Shown here: positions 34,343-64,000 of the stretch, one piece after another
Layout: every line of letters starts with the position of its first letter
Numbering within the stretch: the stretch's first letter is position 1
Assembly (NCBI GenBank): GCA_943737045.1
Contig: CALSFV010000216.1
Coordinates: 1-64,000, forward strand
Length of the DNA: 64,000 nucleotides
From: Parapristionchus giblindavisi
Taxonomy: Eukaryota; Nematoda; Chromadorea; Rhabditida; Diplogasteridae
Reading direction: 5' to 3'
The notes under the pieces: model-generated
What the model saw: the letters and a program-made list of their open reading frames with translations, nothing else
What the model was told of the DNA's origin: nothing
The model's database searches: none
Translations under genes and position numbers: made by a program

Positions 34343-34890
34343 CTAATATTTCACGAAACGACGACGTCTTCGGGCCTCGGCAGCAGGAGCAGGAGCACTG
34401 TTAGCAAATGCGTTCTGAATGAATAGATGGTCTTCAGTGATTTTTAAAAAAATATTTGATGAAAATCTTACAGCAGTCGCAGTGGCGTTGCCTCCCTCTG
34501 CGATAGCGTTGGCGGTAGCTACTGCATTGGCGGACTGAACGAATAATATAATGATTCTGATCGTAGTCAAAGATAATGATGAACGTACTGTTTTTAATTT
34601 TACCTGTCGCTTTCTACGCCCGAGTCCGGCATTTCCTAGAAGGTTCAATCCACCACCAATGCGACCTCCGGCACCATAGACACCCTCTTTCACGGTTCCT
34701 CCGTAGACATCTCCGTATCCACTGCCTGCAAAGTGGGAAATATAAGCACTTGAACACAGGAAAGTGTGTTACCTTGCAGACCGATATTGCCTTGGATATT
34801 GGTAGGGAAGGACGACGAACCGCCCTCAGTTTCTTGTGATAGTGAAGAAGTGATAAGGAGGCATGCACAGAGAAGGAAAGAGTAGATCAT
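34343..34890 (-). CDS. Secreted precursor family, gene A (124 aa)
   Basis: Four exons: 34890-34773, 34725-34604, 34534-34472 and 34414-34343, joined in phases 1, 0 and 0 with introns of about 47-70 bp. The start is the first ATG after a TATA box and gives a clear signal peptide (residues 1-18, SFLLCACLLITSS). Residues 35-40 read NIGLQG. Residues 40-80 form the Gly-rich core (YGDVYGGTVKEGVYGAGG, LNLLG) ending in the furin-type site RRKRQ. Residues 81-101 are an Ala/Asn/Thr module (SANAVATANA). The tail NAFANSAPAPAAEA ends in five Arg and FVKY. It is the outermost minus-strand member of the cluster and lacks the C-terminal module found in B, C and E. Function unknown; a processed secreted peptide is an inference from the signal peptide and basic sites. 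Confidence 0.85.
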
Positions 34891-34935
34891 TTTTATCAAA
34901 AGATGAAAATACGATGGCTGTTCAGTGAATCGAGT

Positions 34936-35012
34936 GGATTTATATAGTAGGGGATGATCGTAAAAGGATCGAGATAATCCCCATAGTTCAAAGGGCAATC
35001 CGATCCAAAAAT
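34936..35012 (-). promoter_or_regulatory. Promoter of gene A: TATA box and shared upstream element
   Basis: TATA sequence CTATATAAA (34947-34939), about 50 bp before the ATG. Farther up, on the minus strand, GGATCGGATTGCCCTTTGAA (from 35006) is nearly repeated upstream of B, E and F, followed by a GGGGATTATCTCGATC stretch that is also seen at B. Confidence 0.6.
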
Positions 35013-35183
35013 GACAACGGGGCGAATAGACCGGACAATATGGATGTAAGTGCAATATGTGCACTTTAAAAGAACATATTATATTATAGATAAGCTAAGG
35101 CTATTGAATCAGAGATTGATTTTTGGCTCTAGAGCGTAGTATTTTAGTGATTGAAGCAGTGTCCAATATATTCACAATGGAAG

Positions 35184-35634
35184 AGCATGAAATATCTTTT
35201 ATATCTTCGAACGAGTATATTTTTCCTCGATTGTATAGGCAATAAATGTTCGGAACCAAAATATCAAGTGCTTGCATGTACTTCCATGATTAATTTAATT
35301 GTACATCTTCGATCACGCAGCGTACACGTTGTGTATGAAGTAACAAGAGCATGAAATGACACCTGAAAGAGGAATGAAAACATCGCGGCATGGTGTAATG
35401 GTAGTGTGTACTCTTCTTGATCAGACTTTGGATCGTTCGAGCACACCAGTAGACATTTTATTTTATGCTCTTGTTACTTCATCGCCTACACAGTATGTAC
35501 ATATATACAATATTAAATTAACCATACAAAATCAGAAAGTGAATGCCATCAGTTGATATATTGGTTCCGAACATTTATTGCCTACAGCTAGCAAAAGTAT
35601 TCTCGATAAAAGGTCTAAAAGATATTTCATGCAC
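35184..35634. repeat. Foldback element with a tRNA-like loop
   Basis: The left arm (about 35184-35360) and right arm (about 35452-35634) are inverted copies. Shared blocks are GCATGAAATATCTTTTA at the outside, GGCAATAAATGTTCGGAACC in the middle and GATGAAGTAACAAGAGCAT at the inside. The loop holds the tRNA-like sequence described separately. Confidence 0.8.
35383..35452 (+). other. tRNA-like sequence in the foldback loop
   Basis: It reads GCGGCATGGTGTAATGGTAG, an A-box match, and 35 bases later GATCGTTCGAGCACACC, a B-box match. D- and acceptor-stem pairing is poor, so I do not call a functional tRNA. It could act as an internal RNA polymerase III promoter. Confidence 0.35.
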
Positions 35635-36105
35635 TACCCTTGTCAGCAGTGTCTGTAGAAAATTCATCGACGTTATTATTTTCATAATTGATTTTAACTT
35701 TGTTTCGTTTTAATTTGAATAATGACAAGTCGCTCTAAAATCTTAACGCATATTGATAAATAATTGTTCTCATTAAAGATTTTTTTCACGAAGCTCATGA
35801 AGTTTTATCAGCCATCAAACTCTAATTCATGAATTCTTTAAAATTTCTGTGAAAATCCCGAGAGTCATTCATTATTGTATGTCATTGACATTAAACATAT
35901 TGTTCGCATAATAAAGTTATTATTATTATATCTACATATTAATATGTGTGTTAATAGCGATCAACATTGTTTGACATACACGATTATGTAATATCCCTTA
36001 TAAGGTCATTGCCGTATACTTTAAATATAATTTATTCGAATGCTTGAGCAAACTCAATTGATTCATATCATCTTATGGCACAATATCAATAAATCAACAA
36101 AAAAA

Positions 36106-37198
36106 TCATTTGTGTGGTATAATCCTAGTTCCGGGAAGGACAATTCCTCCACTGCTAACGACTGTTCCAGATCCATCAACAGTCTGTGTTGCTATACTAC
36201 TGACTCCATTAACTGTAGAACCACTGAATGCCGCACCCGTCATACCGTTCATCATCGAGGCCGGTACAATGATAACCGGGAAGTAGATTGGTGTCATTTC
36301 AGCTGCCTGCAATCTATTAATTAATGCACATTTTTGAATTATTTATTGGTATTGTAAGTTTGTGCGCTTTGTTCATTGATTCATTGGATTTGAAGGGAGA
36401 TCTATACTTATGGCACGATGTACACATATAATTTACAAATAATTTTTGTTTAGTGATGTACCGATCTCTTTCGACGAGCGGAACATGGCTTATCATCCGC
36501 AGCAGGTTCCTCTGCGGGTGGAGGAGGTGTCGGCATTCCAGGGAACGTGAACGGAAAGGCTGGGAAGTTGTCAAAGCTACCAGAGACAGCGAAGGCGTTC
36601 TGGAAAATAAGTGTTTGCGAAGATGCTCGATGCGGGAAAACTGGTTAAAGGCAAATCTGAGCAAATTTTACTCTCCGCTCTGGCAAGGCTCTCTCGTAGA
36701 CAAAGAACGCGAGAGAGCACTGACAGAGCGGATGGTTTCAAATTAACTCGGGTTTTTTTCTTTATGAAAAACTTACTGCTATCGCTTGACCGTCACTTCC
36801 AGTAGCGTTTGCTGTAGCTGTTGCAGTAGCGGACTTAAACGATACCTTTGTAGCCTATTTTATAAAAGATCATTATGTTAGATTCTACCTGTCTCTTCCT
36901 ACGACCGTATCCAGCGGTACCGAGAAGATTCAAGCCTCCTCCAATACGGCCACCAGCCCCATAAACGCCCTCTTTCACCGTACCACCATACACATCACCG
37001 TATCCACTACCTGCAAAGTATTATTTCATCTTTTAAGCTAGTGGAAAAGATCAGACATATTATTGAAAGATCGATATCACAAAAAGGAGAAAATGATTTT
37101 GTACCTTGTAGACCGATATTGCCATTTATGGAGGGACTTCCGGCTTCCTGTGCCGCTGACCTGACTAGAAGAAGACACACAAAGAACAAAACAGTCAT
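36106..37198 (-). CDS. Secreted precursor family, gene B (210 aa, with C-terminal module)
   Basis: Five exons: 37198-37105, 37010-36889, 36854-36777, 36599-36462 and 36306-36106. The total is 633 bases with every junction in frame. The signal peptide is TVLFFVCLLLVRSAAQ. Residues 27-32 are NIGLQG, the core is residues 32-72 ending RRKRQ, the Ala/Thr module is residues 73-98, and the Pro-rich tail at 99-144 carries a lone Cys (KPCSARRKRS). A second furin-like site (RRKR) lies exactly at the exon 4/5 border. Exon 5 encodes a 66-residue module with NGVSSIATQTVDGSG and GGIVLPGTRI. Exon 3 uses an upstream TAG acceptor, adding ATKVSFK relative to its paralogues. A hairpin MITE occupies intron 3. 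Function unknown. Confidence 0.82.
36663..36750. mobile_element. GAGAGAGC hairpin MITE
   Basis: CCGCTCTGGCAAGGCTCTCT pairs with AGAGAGCACTGACAGAGCGG across a loop of about 14 bases, with TTTCAAATTAACTCGGG following. It is one of about nine copies in the window and lies in intron 3 of gene B. Confidence 0.8.
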
Positions 37199-37242
37199 CG
37201 TTATTGAAAGACTATACGAGGAACTGAAAGATTTTCAATAGA

Positions 37243-37320
37243 GGGAGTTTATATAGTAGTGGTCGAATATAAAAGAGATCGAGATAAATCCCAAAGTTCA
37301 AGGGGCGATCCGATCGAACA
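37243..37320 (-). promoter_or_regulatory. Promoter of gene B: TATA box and shared upstream element
   Basis: CTATATAAA at 37256-37248, about 50 bp upstream of the ATG. GATCGGATCGCCCCTTGAAC (minus strand, from 37315) and a following GATTTATCTCGATC stretch match the gene A promoter. Confidence 0.6.
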
Positions 37321-37384
37321 TCGCCATGGTGATGAGATGGAAATGCACTACGTGTACTTTAACGGCACTCCGAGCTAATTTTGC

Positions 37385-37470
37385 CGTCCATTCTGGTCTA
37401 TCGTAGACAAAGAACGCTAGAGAGCATTGACAGCGCGGAGAGTTTTAAATTAACTCGGGATGTGCCTTTT
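37385..37470. mobile_element. GAGAGAGC hairpin MITE
   Basis: The right half AGAGAGCATTGACAGCGCGG with TTTTAAATTAACTCGGG and a degraded left half (CCATTCTGGTCTATCG). Same family as 36663-36750, located upstream of gene B. Confidence 0.65.
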
Positions 37471-37863
37471 ACGGATGAGTTGCCTTTGTCGGTGCTCTCT
37501 TCGTTGCACACACTATTTCTTTAGTTTCTGTGCTCGCGAGTGCATTCAACGATGGAGACAATTGACCAATGGGTACTCTTATTTTAAATGAGCACTAGAA
37601 AAAAACAATTCAGTAAACACATAATGAAATCTGTATTACTCATCTAATAAGAACGATTATTGACCTATTTAAATCGCCAGACTTATGCAATGTTGGAATT
37701 TTTCGTTCTGATTTTTGTATTGTTTTTTTGTTGTTGAATTTTTGTTCGTTTTTTTTCTGTTTCTGAAAAACAAAGAATACAAGACAAAAAAGAAAATTAC
37801 AAACACAAATTTGTGTGACAAGTAAGTTTTGATCAATTGTGTGGATGAATTTTTTCTATCTCT

Positions 37864-38160
37864 TAAAGGTGGAGTCACACGAATATTATCGAGAACAAAG
37901 TGTGAAGACAAAAATATAGCAAGTTATACTGCATACCATACATGGATAATTCTATGCTAATTCAGCTTAGTGATTGCGAGAATCATGAATGAATCATGAT
38001 TGCGATTGCAGTCGGGCATTTTTGAAAATTAGAAAGTTCGGAAAAAGGATTCGAACACGCGATGTTATGCTTATTAGCGCACACTTATACCATAGCGCAA
38101 AGTGATTGATGAATGGCAATTCTAATATCTTGCATATCTCGTGTTCATTGTATAGTAGTC
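37864..38160 (-). mobile_element. tRNA-derived SINE-like repeat
   Basis: On the minus strand there is an A-box-like GCGCTATGGTATAAGTGTGC (38098-38079) and a B box TGTTCGAATCC (38057-38047), followed by a tail with AATGCCCGACTGCAATCGC. The same unit recurs at 51415-51710. I see no protein. Confidence 0.65.
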
Positions 38161-38260
38161 ATGTTATGGATTTACATAAACATTCACTGGCATCTATCTT
38201 TAATTTAATATGCTGTCAAATGTCGATTTGACTCGAGATTCGAATTATTTGGAAAGGACA

Positions 38261-39676
38261 AACCGGTTGATGGTGGTGGGCCAATATGTAATTTCAATTT
38301 CGGATCTCGTGTTTTCGTTAATTATATCTTGAAACTACAGTTTTGAAAAAGAGAAGTCGTAATGAGATTCCGGTCACTGATTTGAATGAACCCCTGATCA
38401 GAGAACAGCTCACAGAGAACAATGCAAATGTAATTAATTGAGTGGGAACAAAATATGCAAAATCGACGAGAGGGAACAACTGTCTGAGATATGATTTGCA
38501 TAGAACAGTTTGAGCAAAACCCACGTTTCGGAACCGAGATTTCGGAATCGCCTGGTTGGTTTGCTGATGTTCGCAACGACGCCCCGCTCGCTCCTAATCC
38601 AATACACGGTGAGTATAAAGAAGATGCTATGTGTATTGTAACTCATTTTTCCAGCATTGATCGATCATCTGGAGAGACATTATGTCGGGACCGGTCAAGC
38701 ACCTGTTCGATTTCCAAATGCGATTTGGACACTGTTCGGGCGTAATGGTGCGCCAAGGACATCATGCTCGGCAGAGTCATTTAACAGCCTTATTAATGTG
38801 AGTTCTTTTGCATGCATACATTTCAATAATAAGAGCAGGAGAAGAGGTTGAATTATTATCAAATTTGTGCTTTCAGCGCCGGTGCAAAGTATCGGGAGGA
38901 AGGGCCAAACTGAGCAAGCTGCTGAATGTGCTGAGGGACGAAGAAGATCGAATGAGGGTCGGACTACCAGCAGTTACACTTAGCCCCACTTTTCGGTTGT
39001 CTGTTAACCCATCTACTAGTGTCAGAAAGCATGCTGACAAAGTAGACTTGGTTGTGGCTAATCCAAATGGGCTAGTTGGGTTGGCATTCTTAGATTGGGC
39101 TAGTAGCACAGTTGGTCGTTTTAAGAAGAGTTAATATCGAGATTGTATTGTTATGAGCCTTTGACATGTTCTTTGTTTTGTATTGTTTTCTTCGTATATT
39201 TAAATATTTATATTAATAAATTTATATATTTATCACAAGCTCACACATGAACGGGACAGTCGAGAAAATATTAAATAGCATTATAGCAAAAATGATAATG
39301 ATTAAAAGTTTGAAAAGAACGAATATGGGGCAGTATTGTGTATTGTGTTGTGTGTATCTTTAAATATAAAACGATTTGTGACACCATTTGAAGAATTTAT
39401 TTTAGGTTCTGATGTATGCGGTTCCGAGCCAACGGTTCTGAAATCACGGTTCCGAAACGTGGGTTTTACTCAAACTGTTCTATGCTAATCGGAGCTCAGA
39501 CAGTCGTTCCCTCTCGTCGATTTTGCATATTCTGTTCCCATCTATTTGTGCTCAAAGATCACTTTCCTAATACAATAGTTTCATTAGCATAATTCCGAAT
39601 AGCTCGTTCTCACAATAGGGATGCGAGCAAATCATTTCCATGTATCGATTAACATTTCGGCCCACCACCCGGTTGA
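38261..39676 (+). mobile_element. MULE-like DNA element
   Basis: The outer ends AACCGGTTGATGGTGGTGGG (38261) and GGCCCACCACCCGGTT (39660) are approximate inverses. Inner long inverted repeats lie at about 38438-38560 and 39424-39545 (sharing GTTTCGGAACCG and ATGCAAAATCGACGAGAGGG). Long inverted ends around a gene fragment of the Mutator type support a MULE-class element inserted between genes B and C. Confidence 0.6.
38491..39134 (+). pseudogene. MULE-type transposase C-terminal region (fragment)
   Basis: Three blocks join in frame: to 38608, 38655-38798 and 38877-39134. The text LIDHLERHYVG, RFPNAIWTLFGR, PRTSCSAESFNSLIN and KLLNVLRDEEDRM follows the order of blocks at the C-terminal side of nematode and insect MULE transposase-like proteins (family pattern: 'E..Y+G', 'FP..LWN', 'RTNN..E.WH'). 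The upstream DDE core is not present, and the RTNN-type motif is altered to RTSC. It is probably a non-autonomous or captured fragment. An alternative is a host gene derived from a MULE. Confidence 0.5.
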
Positions 39677-39870
39677 TCAGATGATTTGATTATTTAGAAG
39701 ACAGTCAAAATTTTTTATTTCTTTTCTTAATCATAAAATGCAATTTTAATAATATCCTTGATATTGTAAAGTGATTTCCATGACAATAAAGGTACGGTGA
39801 GTATTCATTTATCGGGACTGAACGCAACGCAACATCGACACAGTTTGCAAACATAAATGTAAAACAAAAA

Positions 39871-40865
39871 TCAATTCTGCGGTATAATCCGGGTTCCAGG
39901 TAGTAGTATTCCTCCGGTGCTAATCACAGTTCCCGCTCCATCAACAGTTTGAGCAGCGATACTACTCACTCCGTTAACTCCAATTGAAGTTCCAGTGATT
40001 GCTGTACCCAGTGCACTATTCATGATGGCAGTCGGGTACGGCACAATAACCGGGAAAGGAATTGGTTGGATATTAGCCACCTGGAATACTATGGTTTATG
40101 CTCTCAATGTGGTCAAAGTCAACAATTTTGAAAAAAGCGCTTTATTCAGGAATTCGTTGCATAGAGATAAAGTTCATAAATTGTTATGATACAATATATA
40201 CATCAGCTAAGATGGTCTTCTAATTCTTTACCGATCTACGACGACGACCCTTGCAGGGCTTCTTTGTAGCAGATGGTTCAGGTGCAGGTGCTTTCGTGGC
40301 CGGACCTGGAGCTACCGGCCCAGGGCCTGATGGTCCTGACCCGAAGTTACCGGTACCGGCGAAAGCGTTCTAAAACGAAATATTCTAGTAAAATCGATAA
40401 TAGGCTTTGACTAAGAAACTTACAGCCATAGCTGAAGCATCGGGTCCATTGGCATTGGCGTAAGCACCAGCATTAGCCTTTAAACGATTATATTTATTTA
40501 TATTTTTTGTGGAAATATGCCAAAACAGCATCAAATTAATAAATATAACAGTACTTGTCTCTTCTTGCGTCCTACTCCAGCGGAGCCAAGTAGATTCAAT
40601 CCTCCTCCAACACGACCTCCGGCTCCATATATTCCCTCTTTCACTTTACCACCGTAGACATCACCATATCCACTTCCTGAAAAGTTTAGATTCTGCACCT
40701 TTAAGTGGAATAGTATTGAGGTAGAAGTCGAAAACAATAATAAACTATCAAACCTTGTAGACCGATGTTGCCCTGGATATTGGTTGGGAAGCCTAGACCT
40801 TCTTCACCTTGGGCTATCGATTTGGCAACGAGGATTGTTGAGCAAATAAGAAGGGAATAAAGCAT
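39871..40865 (-). CDS. Secreted precursor family, gene C (211 aa, with C-terminal module)
   Basis: Exons 40865-40754, 40676-40555, 40477-40424, 40369-40232 and 40080-39871 sum to 636 bases, all in frame. The signal peptide is LYSLLICSTILVAKSIAQ. NIGLQG ends at residue 38, and the core (38-78) ends RKKRQ. The module ANAGAYANANGPDASAMA follows at 79-96. The tail NAFAGTGNFG is Pro/Gly-rich and contains KPCKGRRRRS with the lone Cys. The C-terminal module (143-211) contains NGVSSIAAQTVDGAG and GGILLPGTRI. Exon 3 has an AAG acceptor. The last intron (40231-40081) contains AATAAA (minus strand), so a short isoform ending soon after the RRRRS site is possible. It is head-to-head with the closely similar gene D, sharing an 812 bp upstream region. 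Confidence 0.85.
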
Positions 40866-40943
40866 TATTGATTGATCAACCCTAGAGGAGATGAAGGGAA
40901 CTAGAGCACTGATGGTACTGTAGTTGAAACATGTGACTAGTCT

Positions 40944-40997
40944 CTTTATATAGCAGAAGTTGGTTGAGTGTGTCAAAATGATCATGGGATATAATGG
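40944..40997 (-). promoter_or_regulatory. Promoter of gene C: TATA box and ATCCCATGAYCATTTTG element
   Basis: CTATATAAA at about 40953-40945 and, about 30 bp above it on the minus strand, TATCCCATGATCATTTTG. The latter is found almost unchanged upstream of D and E at similar distances from their TATA boxes. Confidence 0.6.
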
Positions 40998-41187
40998 TAA
41001 TCCTTGTTATCCACTATATCCTCATAGTACAATATCTAGAAGTGCTCTGGTCCAGATACTCTCAATCAACAGGCTAACTGTTCAAATATCATACAAAGTT
41101 AATGTTCGAGTTGTTACCCTTTGCATGGGTATGCGTTCCACTAATCCGGAGCTAAAACCAAAAAAAACACATCTGTAAATGATCACA

Positions 41188-41296
41188 GACGGCACTCCAC
41201 AACTCATAAGACCTGTGAAGTGCTATTTATATTTAACACTTTTTCTGCTAAAAAATGAGTGTTGAATATAAAAATTGACACGTTTTATGTGCTGTG
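41188..41296. mobile_element. Small hairpin MITE between genes C and D
   Basis: The ends ACTCCACAACTCATAA and TTTATGTGCTGTGGAGT pair, and the inner arms TTAACACT and AGTGTTGAA pair, around a short loop. It is about 100 bp, non-coding, and placed inside the shared C/D upstream region. Confidence 0.6.
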
Positions 41297-41499
41297 GAGT
41301 ACAGTTATCTGTGTGTGAATGATCGTTCGCTTATCCATTTTAACATTTGTTCTACTTCTTCTATCTCTTACAGGGGCACATGTTATGATCACAGATCGCA
41401 GTATTCTTCTGACTTCATGAGGATAGAGTGGACATGCATTAGAGTTCGCATAACAGATTATTGCAGGTATCTCGCACCTGTCAATCTCTCTCTAAATGT

Positions 41500-41605
41500 A
41501 TTCAAAGTCCGATTGTGTTGTACTATGGGATATAGTGGATCACTCGGATTTTCGTTACATCCCATGACCATTTTGTCACGCGATAACTTCTCCTATATAA
41601 GTTGA
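41500..41605 (+). promoter_or_regulatory. Promoter of gene D: shared elements and TATA box
   Basis: AGTCCGATTGTGTTGTACTA at about 41506 is a diverged version of the element at A, B, E and F. ATCCCATGACCATTTTG at 41559-41575 matches C and E. TATATAA lies at 41594-41600, about 80 bp before the ATG. Confidence 0.6.
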
Positions 41606-41677
41606 CCATCAACAAGGAATGACCAGCAGCTGCTTCAGTATTCTAGGAACCTCCATCTCATTTCCATTCGATCAATA

Positions 41678-42675
41678 ATGATATACACCCTCCTGATTTG
41701 CTCCTCAGTCCTCGTTGCCAAGTCGCTAGGCGAAGGTCGAAGGCGAAGGCGAAGGCGAAGGCGAGGGCGAAGGCGAAGGCGAAGGCGAAGGTAGAAGGTC
41801 CCTCTTGCCCCCCACACTTCTACGTCATTTATAATTACCCACCCCATACATAATTTCCCCATTTCCCACCCCATTTCCCTGCTGCCTTCAACCGATTCGC
41901 TGATAACGCGACGGACCTCCATCAACCTATATTTATTACATATCTGTCCTATTGTTCATTTGTTATGATGGAAATAAAGAAAGAAAGAAAGAAAGAAAGA
42001 AAGGTGAGGGAGGCTTCCCAACCAATGTCCAAGGCAACATCGGTCTACAAGGTTTCACATTTTGTTATATTATTGTTTATCATTTTATGGAACGTTGTAA
42101 TGGGGCTAAAGACTGTTTTATTCCTCTCATGTAGTCACCGAATTTATGCTTACTCCACTACCTCTCAAATAATCTATCAGCAATTATACTTTACTTTTGC
42201 ACCGCATAATGTATATTATTATAGTTTACTATTAAGGTAATGGTTACGGTGATGTCTATGGTGGTAAGATCAACGACAATATCTATGGAGCCGGAGGTCG
42301 TGTTGGAGGAGGATTGAATCTACTTGGATCCGCTGGAGTAGGACGCAAGAAGAGACAAGTACTGTTATATTTATTAATTTGACGCTGTTTTGGCATATGT
42401 TTACATAAATTTTTGACTAGTATAATCGTTTGCAGGCAAGTGCTGGTGCTTACGCGAACGCCAATGGACCCGATGCTTCAGCTATGGCGGTAAGTCTCTT
42501 CGTAAAATCATAGCATCGATTGTATTACAATATTTCGTTTTAGAACGCTTTCGCTGGTACCGGTAACTTCGGGTCAGTACCTGGATCAGGTCCAGCCACG
42601 AAAGCTCCTGCACCTGAACCATCGGCTACCAAGAAGCCCTGCAAGGGTCGTCGCCGCGGACCCGGAAAGCACTAG
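41678..42675 (+). CDS. Secreted precursor family, gene D (137 aa if a novel intron is spliced)
   Basis: Exons 41678-41735, 42004-42051, 42237-42358, 42436-42489 and 42544-42675. The signal peptide is MIYTLLICSSVLVAKSLG. The N-terminal module is split: GAAG at 41735 is followed by a GAAGGC-repeat tract that reaches a stop at 41792, and the family sequence resumes at 42004 (EGGFPTNVQGNIGLQ). Treating 41736-42003 as a GT...AG intron restores the exact family phase; otherwise the gene is dead. The core ends RKKRQ, the module ASAGAYANANGPDASAMA follows, and the tail has KPCKGRRRGPGKH then stop. The C-terminal module of gene C is absent because the RRRRS/donor region is changed. AATAAA at 42764 lies 89 bp past the stop. 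It is the closest paralogue of gene C. Confidence 0.7.
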
Positions 42676-42763
42676 ACGATCTAGATCTCACTATTGTATT
42701 GTCCATGTATGTATAGTATCATATGAGTTTTATGAATCTTTCCTTATATGAAACTAATTTGTG

Positions 42764-42769
42764 AATAAA
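42764..42769 (+). terminator. Polyadenylation signal of gene D
   Basis: AATAAA in TTTGTGAATAAACAACTG. The surrounding 3' UTR resembles the first UTR of gene E and the last intron of gene C. Confidence 0.7.
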
Positions 42770-42809
42770 CAACTGTTTTTCATATTATTGAATTCTTTAT
42801 GGCACTTCC

Positions 42810-42910
42810 CAAGATAATTTTTATCTCCGCATTGACAAAGCTCTCTTGTAGACAATGAAAGCGTGAGTATTGCCAGAGCGGTGAGTGTAAAATTATCTTT
42901 GGGTGTCGCT
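42810..42910. mobile_element. GAGAGAGC hairpin MITE (diverged)
   Basis: CCGCATTGACAAAGCTCTCT and GCGTGAGTATTGCCAGAGCG are imperfect inverses; outer ends are CCCAAGATAATTTT and AAAATTATCTTTGGG. It lies downstream of gene D. Confidence 0.7.
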
Positions 42911-43194
42911 TTAATACTCGCCCAGTCGATAGGATTTATTTATGAATGTGGTTGAATATTATTCGTATAGGATCGATTGACTGAAATGTGCTGTAGATGT
43001 CTTTATCGATTGATTGTCTTTCACCTACTTAATCTTGCCTACATTCTGAAAAGACCTCGTTGATTTCTACTCGACCAAGCCTATAATTATCAACAAAATT
43101 CTGTCGATTGGGTGAGTATTAAGATAAAGTTCATAAATTTTTATGATACAATATATACATGAGCTAAGATTGTCGAAGACTTCTAATTCTTTAC

Positions 43195-43318
43195 CGATCT
43201 ACGACGACGACCCTTGCAGGGCTTCTTAGTAGCAGATGGTTCCGGTGCAGGTGCGTTCGTGGCCGGATGTGGAGCTACCGATCCAGGGCCTGGTACTGAC
43301 CAGAAACTGCCCGAAGCG
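43195..43318 (-). pseudogene. Truncated family exon (gene C exon 4 relic)
   Basis: The minus strand reads PGSVAPHPATNAPAPEP then SATKKPCKGRRRRS and a GTAAAG donor, almost as in exon 4 of gene C, followed by the same downstream intron sequence (AATTAGAAG). The exon start is lost where copy X3 begins, so this is a fragment left by a duplication and then cut by the repeat insertion or a rearrangement. Confidence 0.75.
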
Positions 43319-43349
43319 CAAAAGTCGACGTCGTACCGATTTCGCCTCC

Positions 43350-46300
43350 AGAACCCGTCAGAGTAGCTTAGAGTAGACCGTCAGAGTAGATAACGATGAC
43401 GATCGTTAATGGCGACGAAGAAACAATGAGTCGACCTGTATATGGATAGAATATCATAGACGAGGGAACGCAAGATACAGTAAAAGAAAACGAATACAGT
43501 AAGAAAAATGTCTACGGTAGAGGTAAAGAGATGGATACATGATACTCAAGCAAAAAATACAAAATACTAAATAATATACTACACTAATATATCCACGACA
43601 CCATACCCAGCCGTACTTGAGGTAAACCAGGTGAGCCTTATATATTGCTCGCTACCGGGAGTACCCCATGAACGGTGATACCGGGTTACGGTACTGTAAG
43701 ACTAACAAACTAACTAAATATCGAGGATTAGAACTAACTAACGAACTATAACTAGTGATCAACCAAAATCAACTATCCATGTTGTTATACTCAGCCTTAC
43801 ACTACCGCACGGGAGGGTGCAACTACAGTAAGTCAATGGATGCGACAAGATATGACATGAGTGAAAACACATTAACCAATACGGTATTGTAGGGTGGGAT
43901 ACAGTACCACAGTGAAGAAACAGGCGTATCCGTGGATAAATGACGAATCCGAGTGCAGATGAGCGCAGACTATTCCGGGAGTTGACAGGCCCCGAGACGG
44001 TTATCGGAGTTGTAGTACATAGAGCGGGTGAAAGATGAAGACGAGCAGGGGGAAGAGACGATAAATGACGAAGAGAGCTATGATAGTGTCTTATATACGG
44101 AGGAGCACGCGCTCGATCTTGATGTTCTGGAAGGATTGAAAGGAATGATCTATCCTGTTCCTAGAGCCATCGATCTGAATTCATCTTCACGTGAAGATGA
44201 TTTACAACTATTCCTTCCCTGGCTACGACGAGATTATGTGATCGTTCTTTGATCATAGCAGAGAGTGTGCAAATGTGAGAGAGTACAGACAGAGTGAGAG
44301 AGTGCAGAGAAAGACACCAATGCCCTCGTCAATAGTGTTTTGGTGATTCCCATACTGATCTATCGATTACACAATGTTTTCTACTATGTCTCCTTTGTCC
44401 CTCTTTCTTTCCCTTTCCTTTATTCAAACCCTGTTGCATTCATTGATATTTTGACTTTATCATATTTGCATGTAATTTCGTAGTTGTTGTCTAGTCTTGC
44501 ATATGATTATCTGTAACACATTTCAACATTCTCGTTCATTTCGTTTGCAGTCTTCGGTCATTTCGCAGCTCCTCACCCCCTCTTCGTTTCCTTTTTGAAA
44601 TTGATCTTTGATCTTTGCCTTCTTCACGTGCTTTAGACAGCGTGCTAACGTACGAGAGAGCTGACAGAGTGAGAGATTGTGGGAAAGCGAGAATGCAGAG
44701 AAAGAAATATGATGGACTCGTCAATGATCCAGCATCGATAATGTTGATTCATTAGCGTATCCCTCTATATAGAACTACTTCTCGATATACTTTTCTTATT
44801 CTTTTCATTCGTAATTATTATAGTTCAGTCTCTTGCCATCCATCTCCCTCTCCTTTTTCCTTTTCCTCTCCCTCTCCCTCTCCTTTTTCCTTATCCTCTC
44901 CCTCTCCCTTTTCCTATTTCTCCCTCTCCTTTGCTATATCTCGATCACTCCACCTCTACTTCTCTCTCCAATTCTACCTCTGGCCATGGTACTTGCTCTA
45001 TCTCTCCTCTCTCCTCTATCTCCTCTCGTTTTTTTCTCCCAGTGGGATCCCAGTAAAAGTGGGCGTGGTATAGGCCACAATACGTCCTAGTGGTTTCCCA
45101 GCAAATCTCCCACTAGTTTCCTAGCTAGATCCCCACTGGGAGATATGCTGGGATCCCACTGGGAGAAAAAAACGAGAGTCCTTCCTTCGTTTGCAGTCTT
45201 CGGTCCTATTGACCCTTCACTCTCGGTGATTTTCCCGCCGTTTCTAGCTATATCTCTTCCTTGTCTCCTCTCTTCTTCTCTACCTCTCTTGTAATCATTG
45301 ATATGTTATTGCACATTTTATTCTTATTTTTTCTTATTTTATATTCTCAATTTGTAGCTCTCTTGAGACTCGTTTTTCATTACTTTGTTGTCCTATGAGT
45401 GCATAATGGTCGCTGAAGTGTTACTGTGGACAACGTCAAATCCATTTCAGAACTCGAAATCTATCGTGAATGGTCGTATAAATGAAGCGTTCACTGAGAG
45501 GCCTTCATCGACTGATGTGAAGTTGGCGAAGAATCATGGACATGATTGGAAACTAGGTTAGACCATCTACGATCGATGTTGGAGGTAATCGTATGCTCTG
45601 TAAAAAAGTCATGAAAAGAAAAGAAAAACAGAGAACATTCCTCGTTTTGCACACCTTCTCGCCACTTTCTTTTCATTTTCACCTCTTTTGTGACCATATT
45701 TCTATCGTTTCGGCGCTTCTTCCGATAACGGCATCTATCTTAAAATCTATTCAACACTCATTTCATTATCAAATCATTACTGAAATGTAATAGACGATGT
45801 CGTTTAAGGATGAAGTGCCCTCATTTCTTGTCTTGTGTGATGATCAAAAATTGCGAAAAAATAAAAACCGAGCTCACATCTTTTTTTGATATTCTAAACC
45901 GTTGAGAGTTGTCCTTTCGCAGCTTTTGAACACAAGTTAGAATATGATAGGGAAAATTCGTTTAATCAATTTTGTAATTTGTGGTTCTTCATGTCGATTT
46001 TTCGTCATCATGGCTGATGAAGATGGTCGGAAGGTCGTCGTCATCTTCGATCATGAACTTCTCAATGGAATGGTGAAGGTGTAAGCGACTTGAAAGACTG
46101 CTGCTAAAGACTGCTGCTGGCGCCCCTGCTTGATACTGTGTTCAGAAATAATAAAGATATTTGGGGTGTTGTAAAGATTGTAATCGGTGTCTAAGCCCGC
46201 GCGGTTAAATGGGCGGAGTCAGAATCACTATATAAATAGGGTTAATCAGAAAGAGGCGGAGCCATGCATCGGTATGCAAGTTCGGGAATGTCTGAGTATA

Positions 46301-46440
46301 TGTAGATCGTTTAACATGTCTTCTAATGGTCTGGTCTAGTGCCCATGGTCTAGTGCCATTTTTTACTTGGCGTAACTCCGCTCTCCCTACGCTAATGACT
46401 AGTGTGCAGAGGTCCCATAGAATGATCGTGAACTAAATGC
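43350..46440 (+). mobile_element. Dispersed repeat element, copy X3
   Basis: Collinear with 8150-11090 (copy X2) through landmarks such as CCCAGCCGTACTTGAGGTAA (43605), GAGAGAGTGCAGAGAAAGA (44297), AAGATATTTGGGGTGTT (46155) and GCGCGGTTAAATGGGCGG. It is clearly diverged from X2 and carries a nested 156 bp insertion at 45023-45178. No credible gene is seen. Confidence 0.7.
45023..45178. mobile_element. Nested hairpin MITE inside X3
   Basis: The ends CTCTCGTTTTTTTCTCCCAG and CTGGGAGAAAAAAACGAGAG are perfect inverses, with GTGGGATCCCAG repeated just inside. The unit is missing at the equivalent place in X2 (about 9750), so it inserted after the copies separated. Confidence 0.85.
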
Positions 46441-47660
46441 GTTTTCAATAAGTTTCAATATTACATGGATACAATACAATTGATTGATATCAAGTGATAA
46501 CACTTGATGAAGGGATGAGCATTCTTCAGTTCCTCCGTTGGTATCAACCACCATCTTGCACCAATCTTCTCGAAGTCATCACGCCAACGAACACGGCATT
46601 ACGTTACATGGATACATACAACAAAAATATATGTAATAGATATTACGGTAACATTTAAATGTTACAAAAGGAATATTTAATAACACGGATCTCCTGTAAA
46701 AGAGTATGAAACCGTTCGACAGCAAATTAATTTTATCCGATTTCATTGATAGGTGTTAGACTGGTCTAACTGAGTTCGAAAACAACATTTTTAAATTTTA
46801 ATTTTCGAAATTTGCAAATCTATGAAATGTGCTTACTGTCAACGTTAAATGAATGTATTTGAGCTATCATGTGAAACTTTTTTAGATCGGTTGCTAATGA
46901 CCTCATCTACGAATAACTCAATTAAGGATATGGCCGGAAATGTTGTTTTACATGTGTTATTGCATGAAAACTGATTTTTAACATACAAAATGCGATGTTT
47001 CTCGAACATTTTCTCTAAAGCATAAGAGTGTTATTGCAGATCCGGATTCCCCGTTCTCAAATTGGCGTATCCTGATATATCTTTTAACGAAACTCTGTAT
47101 TCCCAATAGTGCTACCGTATATCGTCCAGGACATAGTGCAATTTTCTCTCAAATCACATTTTTGGTTGTAAATCAGCTAAAACTTATGCTAATAAATACA
47201 TTAGCATATTTGAACCCTGTATCTCGACCAACCTGACAAAATTGTCTTAGAGGTTCGAATTGTCAACAACAACCATTTTTGAGATATGAATTGAAAACTG
47301 ATTTTATTAAAGATTTTTCGCCTTTCTGAATTGATGCAACTTAAAAACACCAGGTTTCTCGTTGAAGCCATATTTCATATTTTCTTTTTATTTCAAAGCT
47401 GCCTTCACAGTTTGTCCACGCAAAAAACCTTTAATTGAAACATGCAGAAAATTCCCTGATATGTAAAGAATAATTCCCAAGGGGATTCTCATCGTCAGCA
47501 TATAAGGGAAATATTCCCTAACAATAAGTGCAGTTCTAAAACATCCCTAACAAACCCCTTTTATGGGATTTTTTTTGAGTTCAGTGAAACATGTTATTAT
47601 TATGTTTCACTGGTACGATGATTGTTGGTCGCACCTCACTGTTTCCTGTCTGCACTTCTC
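46441..47660. other. Intergenic, no gene seen
   Basis: AT-rich sequence between X3 and the gene E promoter, without reading frames or motifs I can support. Confidence 0.5.
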
Positions 47661-47667
47661 TTTATCT

Positions 47668-47765
47668 GATTTCGATCGGATTGCACTTTGACGATTAGAC
47701 TACTCAGATTATCATCATATCCCATGACCATTAATAGCGCACCAAGTATATTATCCTATATAAAT
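47668..47765 (+). promoter_or_regulatory. Promoter of gene E: both shared elements and TATA box
   Basis: CGATCGGATTGCACTTTGA at 47673-47691 (shared with A, B, F), ATCCCATGACCATTAA at 47719-47734 (shared with C, D) and CCTATATAAAT at 47755-47765, about 60 bp before the ATG. This is the only promoter with both elements clearly intact. Confidence 0.65.
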
Positions 47766-47819
47766 CGACCAAAATAACTCATTGTCAGTATACATATCGA
47801 AGTTCTTCATCCCAGCGAA

Positions 47820-48614
47820 ATGTCCCATTCCCTTCGTTGCTCATATGTCATCCTCATTATCCCGTTTGTTCTAACCAATGCAGCTCCACAGTTTCCCAAC
47901 AATATGCAAGGCAACGTCGGACTACAAGGTTTTTTCATTATGACTTTGACTGTATGCATGACTGTTCTTTTACTGACCTTAATCGCAATAGCTAACATGA
48001 CCGATTGCAATTCTTTGAAAAAGCGAATTATTGGAAACTATTCTAGGTGGAGGATACGGTGATATGTATGGTGGCAAGGTCCAGCCGGGTATCTATGGAG
48101 CAGGAGGTCGTTTTGGAGGTGGTATGGGTTTAAGTGGCGCATTCGGCCCTGGATCTGGATCTGGTGGATCTGGTGCTCCGGGAGCTCCTGCACCTCCTGC
48201 ACCTGGAACAGCAGCTCCTGCTCCTCCTCCAGTTGACAATGAAGAACCATGCGCAAAACGCAAACGTAGATCGGTAAAGCTCTAAACGTCGATGATTGTA
48301 TTATACATATTGTATCATAAATCTTTTATGAACCTTTTATTATCTATATGATATTAATTTTTGAATAAAAACTGTTTATAAAGTACTGGCTTAAATCACA
48401 AAATTAAACCATACGATTACAGGCGGATACTGTCCAATCAATTCCCTTCCCGATTATTATCCCGGACCCTGCTTCGATCATGAATAGTGTACTGGGTGCG
48501 CCAATGACAGCAACTTCCAACGGAGTCAGTAGTATTGCGGCCCAGACTGTTGATGAATCGGGGACCGTTGTTAGCACTGGAGGAATTGTACTCCCTGGAA
48601 CTAGGATTGCATAG
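47820..48614 (+). CDS. Secreted precursor family, gene E (175 aa; fused core and tail)
   Basis: Exons 47820-47928, 48047-48273 and 48423-48614, 528 bases in frame. A signal peptide is followed by APQFPNNMQGNVGLQG. The core YGDMYGGKVQPGIYGAGG runs straight into a Gly/Pro/Ala-rich tail (GAPGAPAPPAPG). The dibasic site after the core and the Ala/Asn exon seen in the other five genes are absent, probably lost together with their introns. The tail keeps EPCAKRKRRS at the donor. Exon 3 encodes the C-terminal module (NGVSSIAAQTVDESG, GGIVLPGTRI). If the last intron is retained, translation stops at 48285 and AATAAA at 48364 would end a short transcript; the long form uses the acceptor at 48422. Confidence 0.8.
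48364..48369 (+). terminator. Intronic polyadenylation signal of gene E
   Basis: AATAAA in TTTTTGAATAAAAACTG, between the exon 2 donor and the exon 3 acceptor. The equivalent signal ends gene D and also occurs in the last intron of gene C. Confidence 0.6.
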
Positions 48615-49004
48615 GAAAATTCGATTCTTAAACCAATTCGTATTTGTAACTGTGAGAGTATTTTGTTGTGTTCATCACTATCCCGATAAAAATAGTTCCT
48701 TTCATTTATCGTACTATATCAATTGAAAGCGAAAAATCGCAGTTTTATTTTTTATATTACATGACTTACCGGTATGCAGCAAGACGAAGGGTTGGCAAGC
48801 ACCATACTCGTTGACGTTATGATGTATGATAAAGAATCTAATGGTGGAAGATGACATATGACCAATGGTTACGAATGTGTGGAACCGATAAAAAGTGATT
48901 GGTTGGTTTGGTTGATTGATGCATCCCGAAGGATTTCAAATCATTGTCAAATAATAAATAGATAGAATAGTCAATAAAAGGTCTCAAAATTTCTTGAACA
49001 TCAC

Positions 49005-49115
49005 TCCCCAAACTAATTTGAAACTATCCACTCTAGTCACTCTTTCGTAGACAAAAGAAAGCGAGAGAGCATTGGCAGCGCGAAAAGTTTCAAATTGTGC
49101 CTTTAATGGTATTAT
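49005..49115. mobile_element. GAGAGAGC hairpin MITE
   Basis: CCCCAAACTAATTTGAAACT ... TCACTCTTTCG pairs with AAGCGAGAGAGCATTGGC ... AGTTTCAAATTG, and a TGCCTTTAA end follows. It lies between genes E and F. Confidence 0.75.
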
Positions 49116-49659
49116 TGTGATGGGCAACAAGCATTTATCTAACTAAACTATAACCATAAAATCTCCACTCAATGTAAAGTGCGCATTTTGTACTTCCATT
49201 TACACTTCCATGTATTATCAACCCGTCATCGTTTTTGTGGCGTTTAAAGTCAGGGGAAAAGACTAGGTAGTGTAGATTCTATACTCGATGATGATTTTCT
49301 TTCTAAAAGATTTTAATAATATTTTATTAGTTATCATCGTTGTATCATCAGATAAGATGAAGATTCCTCGTAAACTAGAAAAAAATTATTTACTCTAGAC
49401 AGAGTAATTGTAAAATCATTGCAGGCCTGGATATTACGCAATCCCTTCAAATTTGAATTCCCCGCACTTTTCAATTTTTGACCTTGTGAAATCGAGTAAC
49501 TGATGAACGTGTTTGAAAACGCTCTATTCTCGTATTCGAAGTATTGCATTTGGAGAATATTTCACAAAATACACGCGAAAAGTGGAAAGTGAGGAAGAAA
49601 GAAAGAAATTCAAATTGGAAGGGGAGTTTTCTCTTCCTTTTTCGTGTCTTTTGAACAGA

Positions 49660-49760
49660 GCACAAGTTGGATCGGATGACAACTTGAACTTCAGATCTAG
49701 TCTCTATCTCTTTAATGGCCAACCATTACAATGTATAGCACCCATATCTATATAAACCAC
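49660..49760 (+). promoter_or_regulatory. Promoter of gene F: shared element and TATA box
   Basis: TTGGATCGGATGACAACTTG at 49668-49687 with AACT following matches the gene A element. TCTATATAAACC lies at 49747-49758, about 35 bp before the ATG. Confidence 0.6.
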
Positions 49761-49789
49761 TTCACTCATTCTCTAGTCTTTCATTAACC

Positions 49790-50472
49790 ATGATCAGCTC
49801 ATTTCTTGTATGTGCGAGTTTGTTTATAGCCAATTCATTGGCTCACGATGTTGAGTCGCTACCTAGCAGCATAAATGACGATGTTGGTCAGCAAGGTGAG
49901 CATGTCCTTTAGTAACATATTTGATTTGAGTGTTTTGTAGGTAGTGGGTACGGAAAAATCTATAGTGGAAAGAACGGTCGTGATGGAATAGTTGATGGTA
50001 CGATGAATCTTATTGGGACTGCTGGATATGAACGAAAGAAGAGACAGGTAGTATTGCATAATGGACTTAGGTGAACATCTTTGTGCATTTAGCATTATTG
50101 CGCATGAAATTTTGACTAACACTTGAAGGTATATGTTCCGTTACTTTATTGTAGAGGAGATTGTTCATAGGTTTCACATTTCTCGTACTAGAGAGATCTA
50201 ATTATCCAAAAAAATGAAAATGTAGTAATAAATGTTACTTTTTAGTCAGCCAACGCCGTAGCCAACGCAAATGCTACCGGGCCCGATGCACATGCCAATG
50301 CCGTAAACATTTTAGATTGATATCTCTCTCAGCAATATCTATGGACTTAATTCGTTTCTAGAACGCCTTCGCCAGCACTGGTAATTTTGGAACCTTTCCA
50401 TCTTTCCCGTTTCTGTTCCCAGGAGCTACGGCCCGTCCATCACCAGATATAGAAGATACTGACATTGCATAA
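49790..50472 (+). CDS. Secreted precursor family, gene F (126 aa, degenerate core)
   Basis: Exons 49790-49895, 49941-50047, 50246-50302 and 50362-50472, 381 bases, in frame. The signal peptide is ISSFLVCASLFIANSLA. The N-terminal motif is changed to DDVGQQG, and the core is 15 bases shorter than in A-D, losing the GAGGRIGGG centre (now KNGRDGIVDGTMNLIG), but RKKRQ is kept. The Ala/Asn module SANAVANANATGPDAHANA and NAFASTGNFGTFP follow. The tail is acidic (SPDIEDTDIA) instead of basic and has no Cys. The module set is like gene A, which occupies the mirror-image position. It may be under relaxed constraint or have a new role. A polyadenylation signal AATAAA lies at 50618. Confidence 0.82.
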
Positions 50473-61679: not shown

Positions 61680-64000
61680 ATGTTAACATATTTGATAATC
61701 TTCATCTTTCTTCTATTCTCTATTTCATCACAACAAACTATTCTATATCCTGATCCATCCATATCATCAACTATCACTCCATCTCCATCTCCATCACTAT
61801 CAACTACTACACTACCATCTCCCAATCTTCGTCAGGTTCCATATATATCATATTTGTACAACTATCAACTAGATTATACATTCATTCTAATATTAACCTA
61901 TAATAGTATGGATAAATATTAATTCTAGGTATCATTTGGAGATATAGATGATGGATGGTGGAATGAAGGAGATAATGATTATGATGGAGGAGAAGCACCT
62001 GGTAGATGGAGTTCAAGATTTAGGGGATGGGGAGGTGAAGGATCAAATAATAGATTTAGTCAATCATCTATTCCATTCAATGGATTCATTCAATCAAAGA
62101 TTAATCCATTAAATGAACCAAATATCTCATCTTTCTCTTCTCACAATGATCCTTCATCTATGACTAATTCAATGATTCCATCATCAATCAATAATAATAA
62201 TCCATCATTATCATTTCCAATAATTGGAGGATCTGCTATTCATAATGAACCATCATTAAATGAAGATACTCATCGAGATATAATCAATCAAACACCTAAT
62301 CTTAATACTGATGAGATATTCAGTCAAAGATTCAATAATGGTCAAGATGGAGGATTGAATAGTCGATCAGGATTTAGTAGTGGATTTAATCAAGGTGTAG
62401 GAGGACGATTTAACTATGATAATAGAGGATTGAATGATAGATCATTCAATAGAAGAGGATTCCATAATATAGATCCATCAAATTATCATAATGAGAATAT
62501 CTTTGGAAACGGATTCATGAATAGAGGAGAATTTAATAGAAGAAGAGGAGGAAATGATTATAATGATTATGATAATGGAATGAATAATGAAAGAAGAGGA
62601 GGATCAGATTATTATGATGATGTACAAGAAGGAAGAGGAGGAGAAGGAAGAGGATGGGATGGAAGAGGAGGAGAAGGAAGAGGAGGAGAAGGAAGAGGAG
62701 GAGAAGGAAGAGGAGGAGAAGGAAGAGGATGGGATGGAAGAGGAGGAGAAGGAAGAGGAGGAGAAGGAAGAGGATGGGATGGAAGAGGAGGAGAAGGAAG
62801 AGGAGGAGAAGGAAGAGGAGGAGAAGGAAGAGGATGGGATGGAAGAGGAGGAGAAGGAAGAGGAGGAGAAGGAAGAGGAGGAGAAGGAAGAGGATGGGAT
62901 GGAAGAGGAGGAGAAGGAAGAGGAGGAGAAGGAAGAGGATGGGATGGAAGAGGAGGAGAAGGAAGAGGAGGAGAAGGAAGAGGAGGAGAAGGAAGAGGAT
63001 GGGATGGAAGAGGAGGAGAAGGAAGAGGAGGAGAAGGAAGAGGAGGAGAAGGAAGAGGATGGGATGGAAGAGGAGGAGAAGGAAGAGGAGGAGAAGGAAG
63101 AGGATGGGATGGAAGAGGAGGAGAAGGAAGAGGAGGAGAAGGAAGAGGAGGAGAAAGAAGAGGATGGGATGGAAGAGGAGGAGAAGGAAGAGGAGGAGAA
63201 GGAAGAGGATGGGATGGAAGAGGAGGAGAAGGAAGAGGAGGAGAAGGAAGAGGAGGAGAAGGAAGAGGATGGGATGGAAGAGGAGGAGAAGGAAGAGGAG
63301 GAGAAGGAAGAGGATGGGATGGAAGAGGAGGAGAAGGAAGAGGAGGAGAAGGAAGAGGAGGAGAAGGAAGAGGATGGGATGGAAGAGGAGGAGAAGGAAG
63401 AGGAGGAGAAGGAAGAGGAGGAGAAGGAAGAGGATGGGATGGAAGAGGAGGAGAAGGAAGAGGAGGAGAAGGAAGAGGATGGGATGGAAGAGGAGGAGAA
63501 GGAAGAGGAGGAGAAGGAAGAGGATGGGATGGAAGAGGAGGAGAAGGAAGAGGAGGAGAAGGAAGAGGAGGAGAAGGAAGAGGATGGGATGGAAGAGGAG
63601 GAGAAGGAAGAGGAGGAGAAGGAAGAGGATGGGATGGAAGAGGAGGAGAAGGAAGAGGAGGAGAAGGAAGAGGAGGAGAAGGAAGAGGATGGGATGGAAG
63701 AGGAGGAGAAGGAAGAGGAGGAGAAGGAAGAGGATGGGATGGAAGAGGAGGAGAAGGAAGAGGAGGAGAAGGAAGAGGAGGAGAAGGAAGAGGATGGGAT
63801 GGAAGAGGAGGAGAAGGAAGAGGAGGAGAAGGAAGAGGATGGGATGGAAGAGGAGGAGAAGGAAGAGGAGGAGAAGGAAGAGGATGGGATGGAAGAGGAG
63901 GAGAAGGAAGAGGAGGAGAAGGAAGAGGAGGAGAAGGAAGAGGATGGGATGGAAGAGGAGGAGAAGGAAGAGGAGGAGAAGGAAGAGGAGGAGAAGGAAG
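61680..64000 (+). CDS. Secreted Gly/Arg-rich repeat protein (continues past the window)
   Basis: Exon 1 is 61680-61835: a signal peptide (LTYLIIFIFLLFSISSQ) followed by a Ser/Thr/Pro stretch. Exon 2 starts at 61929 after a CTAG acceptor, in phase 0, and stays open to the window end (690 codons). It first encodes an Asn/Ser/Phe-rich region (SFPIIGGSAIHNEP, RSGFSSGFNQGVGGRF), then RRG-rich text. From about 62627 it is only GGEGR and GWDGR pentapeptides. Codons are strongly A/T-ended and the DNA is purine-rich, unlike the other genes here. At least 742 residues. A structural or extracellular matrix-like protein is possible, but I recognise no family. Confidence 0.7.
62627..64000 (+). repeat. 15-bp unit polypurine tandem array
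   Basis: The unit GGAGGAGAAGGAAGA (GGEGR) alternates with GGATGGGATGGAAGA (GWDGR). Between successive GWDGR units there are 2 or 3 GGEGR units (4 only once, at the start), giving mixed 45 and 60 bp higher-order periods. Only one base variant stands out (GGERR near 63150). The array runs off the window. Confidence 0.97.

Follow-up and report, generated by a model that had tools for sequence, protein, structure and literature searches.

The 64-kb window analysed here (the whole 64,000-nucleotide stretch of contig CALSFV010000216.1, hereafter C216, of the nematode Parapristionchus giblindavisi) carries, between positions 34343 and 50472, a cluster of six related genes, A to F, for which spliced models were built. 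All 19 introns in these models have GT...AG borders, and the spliced frame is uninterrupted in A, B, C, E and F, all of the genes but D. Gene A (34343..34890, minus strand) has a spliced frame of 124 residues in four exons: exon 1 (34890-34773) bears the predicted signal peptide and the motif GNIGLQG, exon 2 (34725-34604) a Gly/Tyr core with RRKR followed by Q, exon 3 (34534-34472) an Ala/Asn module, and exon 4 (34414-34343) a tail with RRRRR. Genes B (36106..37198) and C (39871..40865), also on the minus strand, have five exons each, and their long forms of 203 and 211 residues include a C-terminal module at 36306-36106 and 40080-39871, respectively. Gene E (47820..48614, plus strand) has a frame of 175 residues in three exons, namely exon 1 (47820-47928), exon 2 (48047-48273), in which the core is fused to a Gly/Ala/Pro tail with KRKRRS, and exon 3 (48423-48614), the C-terminal module. 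Gene F (49790..50472, plus strand) has a frame of 126 residues in four exons: exon 1 (49790-49895), exon 2 (49941-50047) with a shorter, diverged core and RKKR followed by Q, exon 3 (50246-50302) with the Ala/Asn module, and exon 4 (50362-50472) with a tail that lacks a second site. Gene D (41678..42675, plus strand) is an inverted copy of C, with inverted arms of 354, 93 and 58 nucleotides at 86, 86 and 90% identity; its exons 2-4 are present and no C-terminal module was found when one was looked for in it. Its exon 1 is 374 nucleotides long, whereas that of C has 112, and includes an AGGCGA array (41728-41791) and in-frame stops, so that this gene is either broken or in possession of a gained intron. 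A fragment of a C-type tail exon (43182..43267, minus strand) forms an inverted repeat with exon 4 of D (86 nucleotides, 84%).

These genes share a common modular plan. Exon 1 encodes a hydrophobic start, with a peak 10-residue hydropathy of 2.7-3.6 within the first 20 residues against 1.0-2.2 elsewhere, and closes with LQG or QQG; the first multibasic site lies on exon 2 together with the Gly/Tyr core, the Ala/Asn module is encoded by exon 3, and the tail by exon 4, where A, B and C, unlike F, have a second multibasic site. The exon phases 0->1, 1->0, 0->0 and 0->0 are common to A, B, C and F. An earlier note on this DNA had described a cluster of six genes of this kind, each with one module per exon and the same phases, and the observation of a modular secreted-precursor gene cluster is confirmed, with two corrections. 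The interruption of exon 1 in D had been missed, and gene E departs from the plan, as it has no Ala/Asn exon, carries core and tail on a single exon, and has phase 1->0 at its exon 2. That E lacks the first furin-type site was rightly noted, but KRKRRS stands at the end of its exon 2. The C-terminal module had been assigned to B, C and E, and genome-wide matches to it fall at those three places.

The C-terminal module may be optional in these three genes. On read-through, each meets a stop three codons past the donor of its last intron, which would give short forms ending in SVHH at 36450 for B (read-through of the exon 4 donor, minus strand), in SVKN at 40220 for C (minus strand) and in SVKL at 48285 for E (plus strand). 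The last intron of each also contains AATAAA, a joint occurrence with a probability of 0.016 in a Markov control, and the last introns of C and E, and less well that of B, align with the 3' untranslated region of D. AATAAA is also found in two of the 16 other introns (intron 2 of C and intron 2 of F). It is plausible that B, C and E each have a short and a long form through intronic polyadenylation, and the intronic AATAAA is to be taken as suggestive only in this regard. The module recurs in P0002, a protein of Pristionchus entomophagus, with 34% identity to that of C over 64 columns, where an AlphaFold2 model places strands at 195-202 and 208-215 and gives block 201-210 a mean predicted local distance difference test (pLDDT) score of 85. 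Separately, the C-terminal exons of B and E (36121-36210 and 48519-48608) are 84% alike over 90 nucleotides though E is otherwise diverged, which makes a recent exchange possible.

The six genes of the earlier note do not stand alone in the genome. In the genome (251,446,729 bases in 703 contigs; match counts are lower bounds), protein A as query gave at least 36 exon-level matches, nine in the window and 27 outside it, and a recognisable core was found at 24 or more loci: seven on C216, fifteen on contig C4 (446-667 kb), and one each on contigs C102 and C324, with two further core fragments on C4. The C216 members comprise A to F and an A-like copy, G, at C216:67910-68477. Loci that look disrupted or incomplete include D, C4g2 and C4g5 (in both of which the core is interrupted) and C4g12-14; furthermore, C4g9 is missing the AG at the expected exon 3 acceptor, C4g11 has no tail exon in line, and the exon 3-4 pair is present twice in C4g1 and C4g6. 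Ten C4 genes have among them only four versions of the 40-residue product of the core exon (proportion of nonsynonymous differences, pN, 0.015), and we read these near-identical cores as probable copies for dose. The family genes at about 446-461 kb of C4 lie in a palindrome-like inverted arrangement around 453.8 kb.

Relatives were found in Pristionchus. A single-protein query returned one relative only, and the rest came with two profiles, one built from ten members and searched with an expectation value (E) of up to 10, and a trimmed one from 17. Both profiles included the relative P0001, the trimmed profile also included earlier matches, and each search scored about 8000 candidates sharing most words, such that more distant relatives may have been missed. 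The ten-member profile matched 11 proteins over the core (E 2.8e-36 to 5.3e-13), ten of them from Pristionchus, and the trimmed profile matched 14, of which 13 were from Pristionchus and the remaining one was the same protein as before; among the candidates scored, neither profile gave a match of named source outside Pristionchus, and no C. elegans protein stood among the matches of the single-protein search or of either profile search. The relatives span four Pristionchus species and are all hypothetical: PRIPAC_91279 and PRIPAC_87746 of P. pacificus, PMAYCL1PPCAC_07983, 07985, 07990 and 07995, PENTCL1PPCAC_7849, 7850, 7865 and 27912, and PFISCL1PPCAC_28211, 28222, 4852 and 16756. They share the GNxGL.G motif, a core of the GYGDxYGGK.KEGVYGAGGRVGG type and, PENTCL1PPCAC_7865 excepted, the R-X-(K/R)-R site; eight have the alternating-Ala module, and P0011 differs in having three sites of the R-X-(K/R)-R type. 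Tandem clusters are seen in the P. giblindavisi genome, and in Pristionchus near-consecutive locus numbers only. Because a 24-row tree (11 rows from this genome) parts the genes of the window species from those of Pristionchus (97/99), it suggests that the family expanded separately in each genus; the exception is the C102 member, a long branch among the Pristionchus rows, and 12 of the 21 inner branches of the tree are weak.

That the family was unrecognised, as the earlier note had stated, is borne out by these comparisons, as no relative has a database name or role and no precomputed Pfam domain lies on those from the profile searches. At E up to 0.001, neither a set of three proteins nor one of ten family members matched a Pfam family, the weak leads being Chorion_1 (E 0.013, in one of ten), Keratin (0.026) and Synuclein (0.078), all rejected as above that threshold; solved structures gave no match for the family at E up to 0.001. 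Among the top-ranked literature matches, drawn mostly from outside subscription journals, no description of the family, of its relatives' locus tags or of its motifs was found. The family is an undescribed one within a broad kind that is known, and its members have so far been seen in no genera other than Pristionchus and its sister Parapristionchus.

The pattern of selection differs among the exons. With ratios of nonsynonymous to synonymous substitution rates (dN/dS) pooled over pairs and D and E left out, the comparison between contigs gave 0.10 for the exon 2 core (50 pairs, dS 1.05), 0.20 for the exon 1 signal (50 pairs), 0.19 for the exon 3 Ala/Asn module (50 pairs) and 0.38 for the exon 4 tail (45 pairs), numbers which are rough because dS exceeds 1. 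Within C216 (A, B, C, F and G; 10 pairs each) the values were 0.11 for exon 2, 0.29 for exon 1, 0.17 for exon 3 and 0.29 for exon 4, and within C4 they were 0.12, 0.09, 0.19 and 0.41 (45, 45, 45 and 36 pairs). A second estimate between contigs, with D in and F out, gave a ratio of proportions (pN/pS) of 0.146. In every comparison but that within C4 the core is under the strongest constraint of the four exons; there the signal exon is constrained to the same degree, and as such the graded constraint is clear only outside the within-C4 comparison.

The description of the products as secreted, modular precursors with multibasic sites also stands, as the core is followed by R-X-(K/R)-R in all but E and P0015 among the 20 products scored (A, B, C, E, F and P0001-P0015). 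The X residue is K in 10 and R in eight of these 18 sites, and Gln comes directly after the first site in 14. In the diverged loci the core is followed by REKR (C4g12-14) or RPKR (C324), and by these variants the motif outlives a change of X; furin-type enzymes tolerate X at this position. In A, B, C and F the first piece, up to this site, comprises 47-56 residues with a net charge of -1 to -4.

In 15 chosen members from the two genera, Ala or Ser occupies 148 of 150 alternating positions flanking xGP(D/N)-like turns of the Ala/Asn module. These members are seven from this genome and P0002-P0009, with frames set by eye; left out were A and G (which have a longer module), D, E, the C102 and C324 members, the other C4 genes (of which some are near copies and some are incomplete), P0001, P0011, P0013 and P0015 (other layout), P0010 and P0014 (which end earlier), and P0012, which fits and was unused. 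The alternation score of 127, against a shuffled mean of 18.7 with none of 20000 shuffles as high, overstates the case, given frames chosen by eye and a lack of independence among related rows. The Ala/Ser positions are constant across genera while the residues in between differ, and we read the module as a probable beta-hairpin with a small-residue face.

Upstream of the genes, the TATA-box word CTATATA is present in 19 and ATCGGAT in 14 of 22 stretches, which as paralogues are not independent. The two words form a spaced pair, ATCGGAT ... CTATATAA, at 34940..35004 ahead of A and at 37249..37314 ahead of B, both on the minus strand. A pattern for this pair, derived from the family promoters themselves, has 25 occurrences in the genome, 13 of them at family genes, and a reversed control has 11; as the 12 non-family occurrences are close in number to those of the control, the pair marks the family and little else. 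The pair was also considered as a clue to tissue and set aside, since its 12 non-family places show no clear gene from which a tissue could be assigned, except perhaps on contig C376. There, near 95.5 kb, the same pair lies ahead of a short frame with a signal-peptide-like start, which is perhaps a co-regulated secreted gene.

Taken together, a near-identical repeated core, a small-residue module, a structural model of disordered character, Pro/Ala tails and a convertase-type site are best fitted by convertase-processed matrix proteins, an explanation which we favour tentatively, at a probability of about 0.38, over antimicrobial or signalling peptides. After removal of the signal peptide, a proprotein convertase, presumably of BLI-4 type, would cut at R-X-(K/R)-R and free the conserved Gly/Tyr-rich piece from a usually Gln-starting Ala/Asn module, with its beta-hairpin pattern and Ala/Ser face, and a variable tail. 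Some genes would supply the C-terminal module as a third piece, its inclusion being set by splicing versus polyadenylation in the last intron. The pieces may then assemble into an apical extracellular matrix, be it cuticle, the lining of pharynx or mouth, or eggshell, and cleavage would hold assembly back until secretion. There is precedent in C. elegans, where, according to the available part of one report (PMC11304992), BLI-4 cleavage of cuticle collagens promotes their secretion before cuticle assembly, and where disordered, low-complexity secreted families have been placed in the pharyngeal cuticle (PMC9629831, in excerpt). The latter (IDPA, IDPB, IDPC, APPG, NSPB and FIPR) resemble the present family, by their description in that excerpt, as secreted low-complexity families. 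A more specific version, which we consider quite unlikely, is a diplogastrid-specific silk-like kit, in which the Gly/Tyr peptide and the alternating-Ala hairpin peptide would co-assemble, intronic polyadenylation would gate a third, capping beta-hairpin peptide, and the product would line, for example, the toothed mouth.

Several observations weigh against a matrix function. AlphaFold2 predicts P0002 without an Ala/Asn hairpin (mean pLDDT 48.9, 10 rows), with low confidence over most of the protein and the C-terminal hairpin excepted; a matrix domain was sought in the Pfam searches and none was found; no known cuticle gene is among the places with the spaced promoter pair; and within C4 the signal exon, at 0.09, is constrained like the core, at 0.12. 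Furthermore, in 16 of 18 cases the residue directly ahead of the first site is Gly, a possible donor for C-terminal amidation of the kind seen in signalling or antimicrobial peptides, and this would suit the earlier note's idea of released peptides.

The possibility that the products are Gly/Tyr-rich antimicrobial peptides, like the NLP, CNC and GRSP peptides of C. elegans, with the core as effector and the Ala/Pro part as pro-segment, is a real if doubtful one. By analogy, the nlp-29 cluster is the nearest rival in layout, being a cluster of short, secreted, Gly/Tyr-rich genes (PMC2453101, in its available part), and the same likeness extends to the caenacins and GRSP; in addition, Pristionchus is reported to be rich in putative antimicrobial peptide genes (PMC10506718, in excerpt), and the Gly before the site would allow amidation. 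However, the genes here differ in that their unlike modules meet at an internal convertase-type site and in that the core is under purifying selection (dN/dS 0.10-0.12, pooled, such that single sites are not excluded), unlike the nlp-29 cluster, which the accessible text of PMC2453101 describes as diversified under positive selection. The GRSP rule as excerpted from PMC10506718 (at most 200 residues, a signal peptide, and mature Gly above 17%) gives a divided result when signal-peptide cleavage is placed by eye and the long forms of B, C and E are used: A (20.0%) and E (20.3%) fall within it, but B (16.7%, 203 residues), long C (211 residues) and F (13.1%) fail. Last, the first piece bears a negative net charge in A, B, C and F, unlike a cationic peptide.

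We regard it as unlikely that these are hormone- or neuropeptide-like signals, in which the core, perhaps amidated, or a pyroglutamyl Ala/Asn peptide would bind a receptor. The multibasic site downstream of a signal peptide, the core strongly conserved across genera, and the residues around the site, which would allow amidation of one end and a pyroglutamyl residue at the start, are all consistent with such a role, and the possibility of an amidated end keeps it alive. FLP and NLP precursors likewise have an amidation-donor Gly before the basic site, but they contain several copies of a short peptide, and here no short peptide is repeated, one copy of each unlike module being present in A, B, C, E and F, though C4g1 and C4g6 repeat the exon 3-4 pair. 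The first piece is moreover long and Gly-rich, the second module is of low complexity, and similar cores at 24 or more loci would be a large number for a hormone.

Surface or secreted markers in worm-worm encounters, like the kin-recognition peptide SELF-1 of P. pacificus, are very unlikely. The diplogastrid setting, small secreted proteins, a constant core, the tail dN/dS of 0.38 and a number of AAEEAP-like units that differs between C4g16 and C4g17 all recall SELF-1, which the excerpted source (PMC10721034) presents as a small peptide with a hypervariable C-terminus and which was compared by that description only, but the tail variation here is seen among paralogues, not strains. That the frames are chance openings or decayed repeats is scarcely credible in spite of the mobile elements in the window and several disrupted loci, as splice sites and phases are kept and the 36 exon-level matches, a core dN/dS of about 0.10 and relatives in four species are more than chance.

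Worms of Pristionchus and its sister genus serve as models for the study of lineage-restricted genes. A family constrained in both genera and apparently amplified separately in each, with promoter words of its own and a conserved convertase-type site, offers a small and testable example of a secreted material or effector that is new.

Some further features of the window and genome were observed. Between B and C, at 38443-39540, inverted repeats of 108 nucleotides (91%) flank a short open frame, which is perhaps a DNA transposon, and by eye a terminal sequence like these repeats lies near the family member on C102. At 18831-21888 (plus strand) the window holds frames like those of a retrotransposon lacking long terminal repeats (non-LTR), with endonuclease and reverse transcriptase domains in two frames, and at 62627-64000, running on past the window end, a long GA-rich minisatellite of which one frame is open as RRKRRRRKRMGWK-like repeats. 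The nematode spliced leader sequence SL1, which places the genome in this phylum, occurs at 711 places with at most two mismatches (252 forward and 459 reverse, with none in a reversed control). Exact SL1 sequences stand in tandem on contig C145 at a spacing of about 1.17 kb, starting near 26 kb and reaching at least 83 kb.

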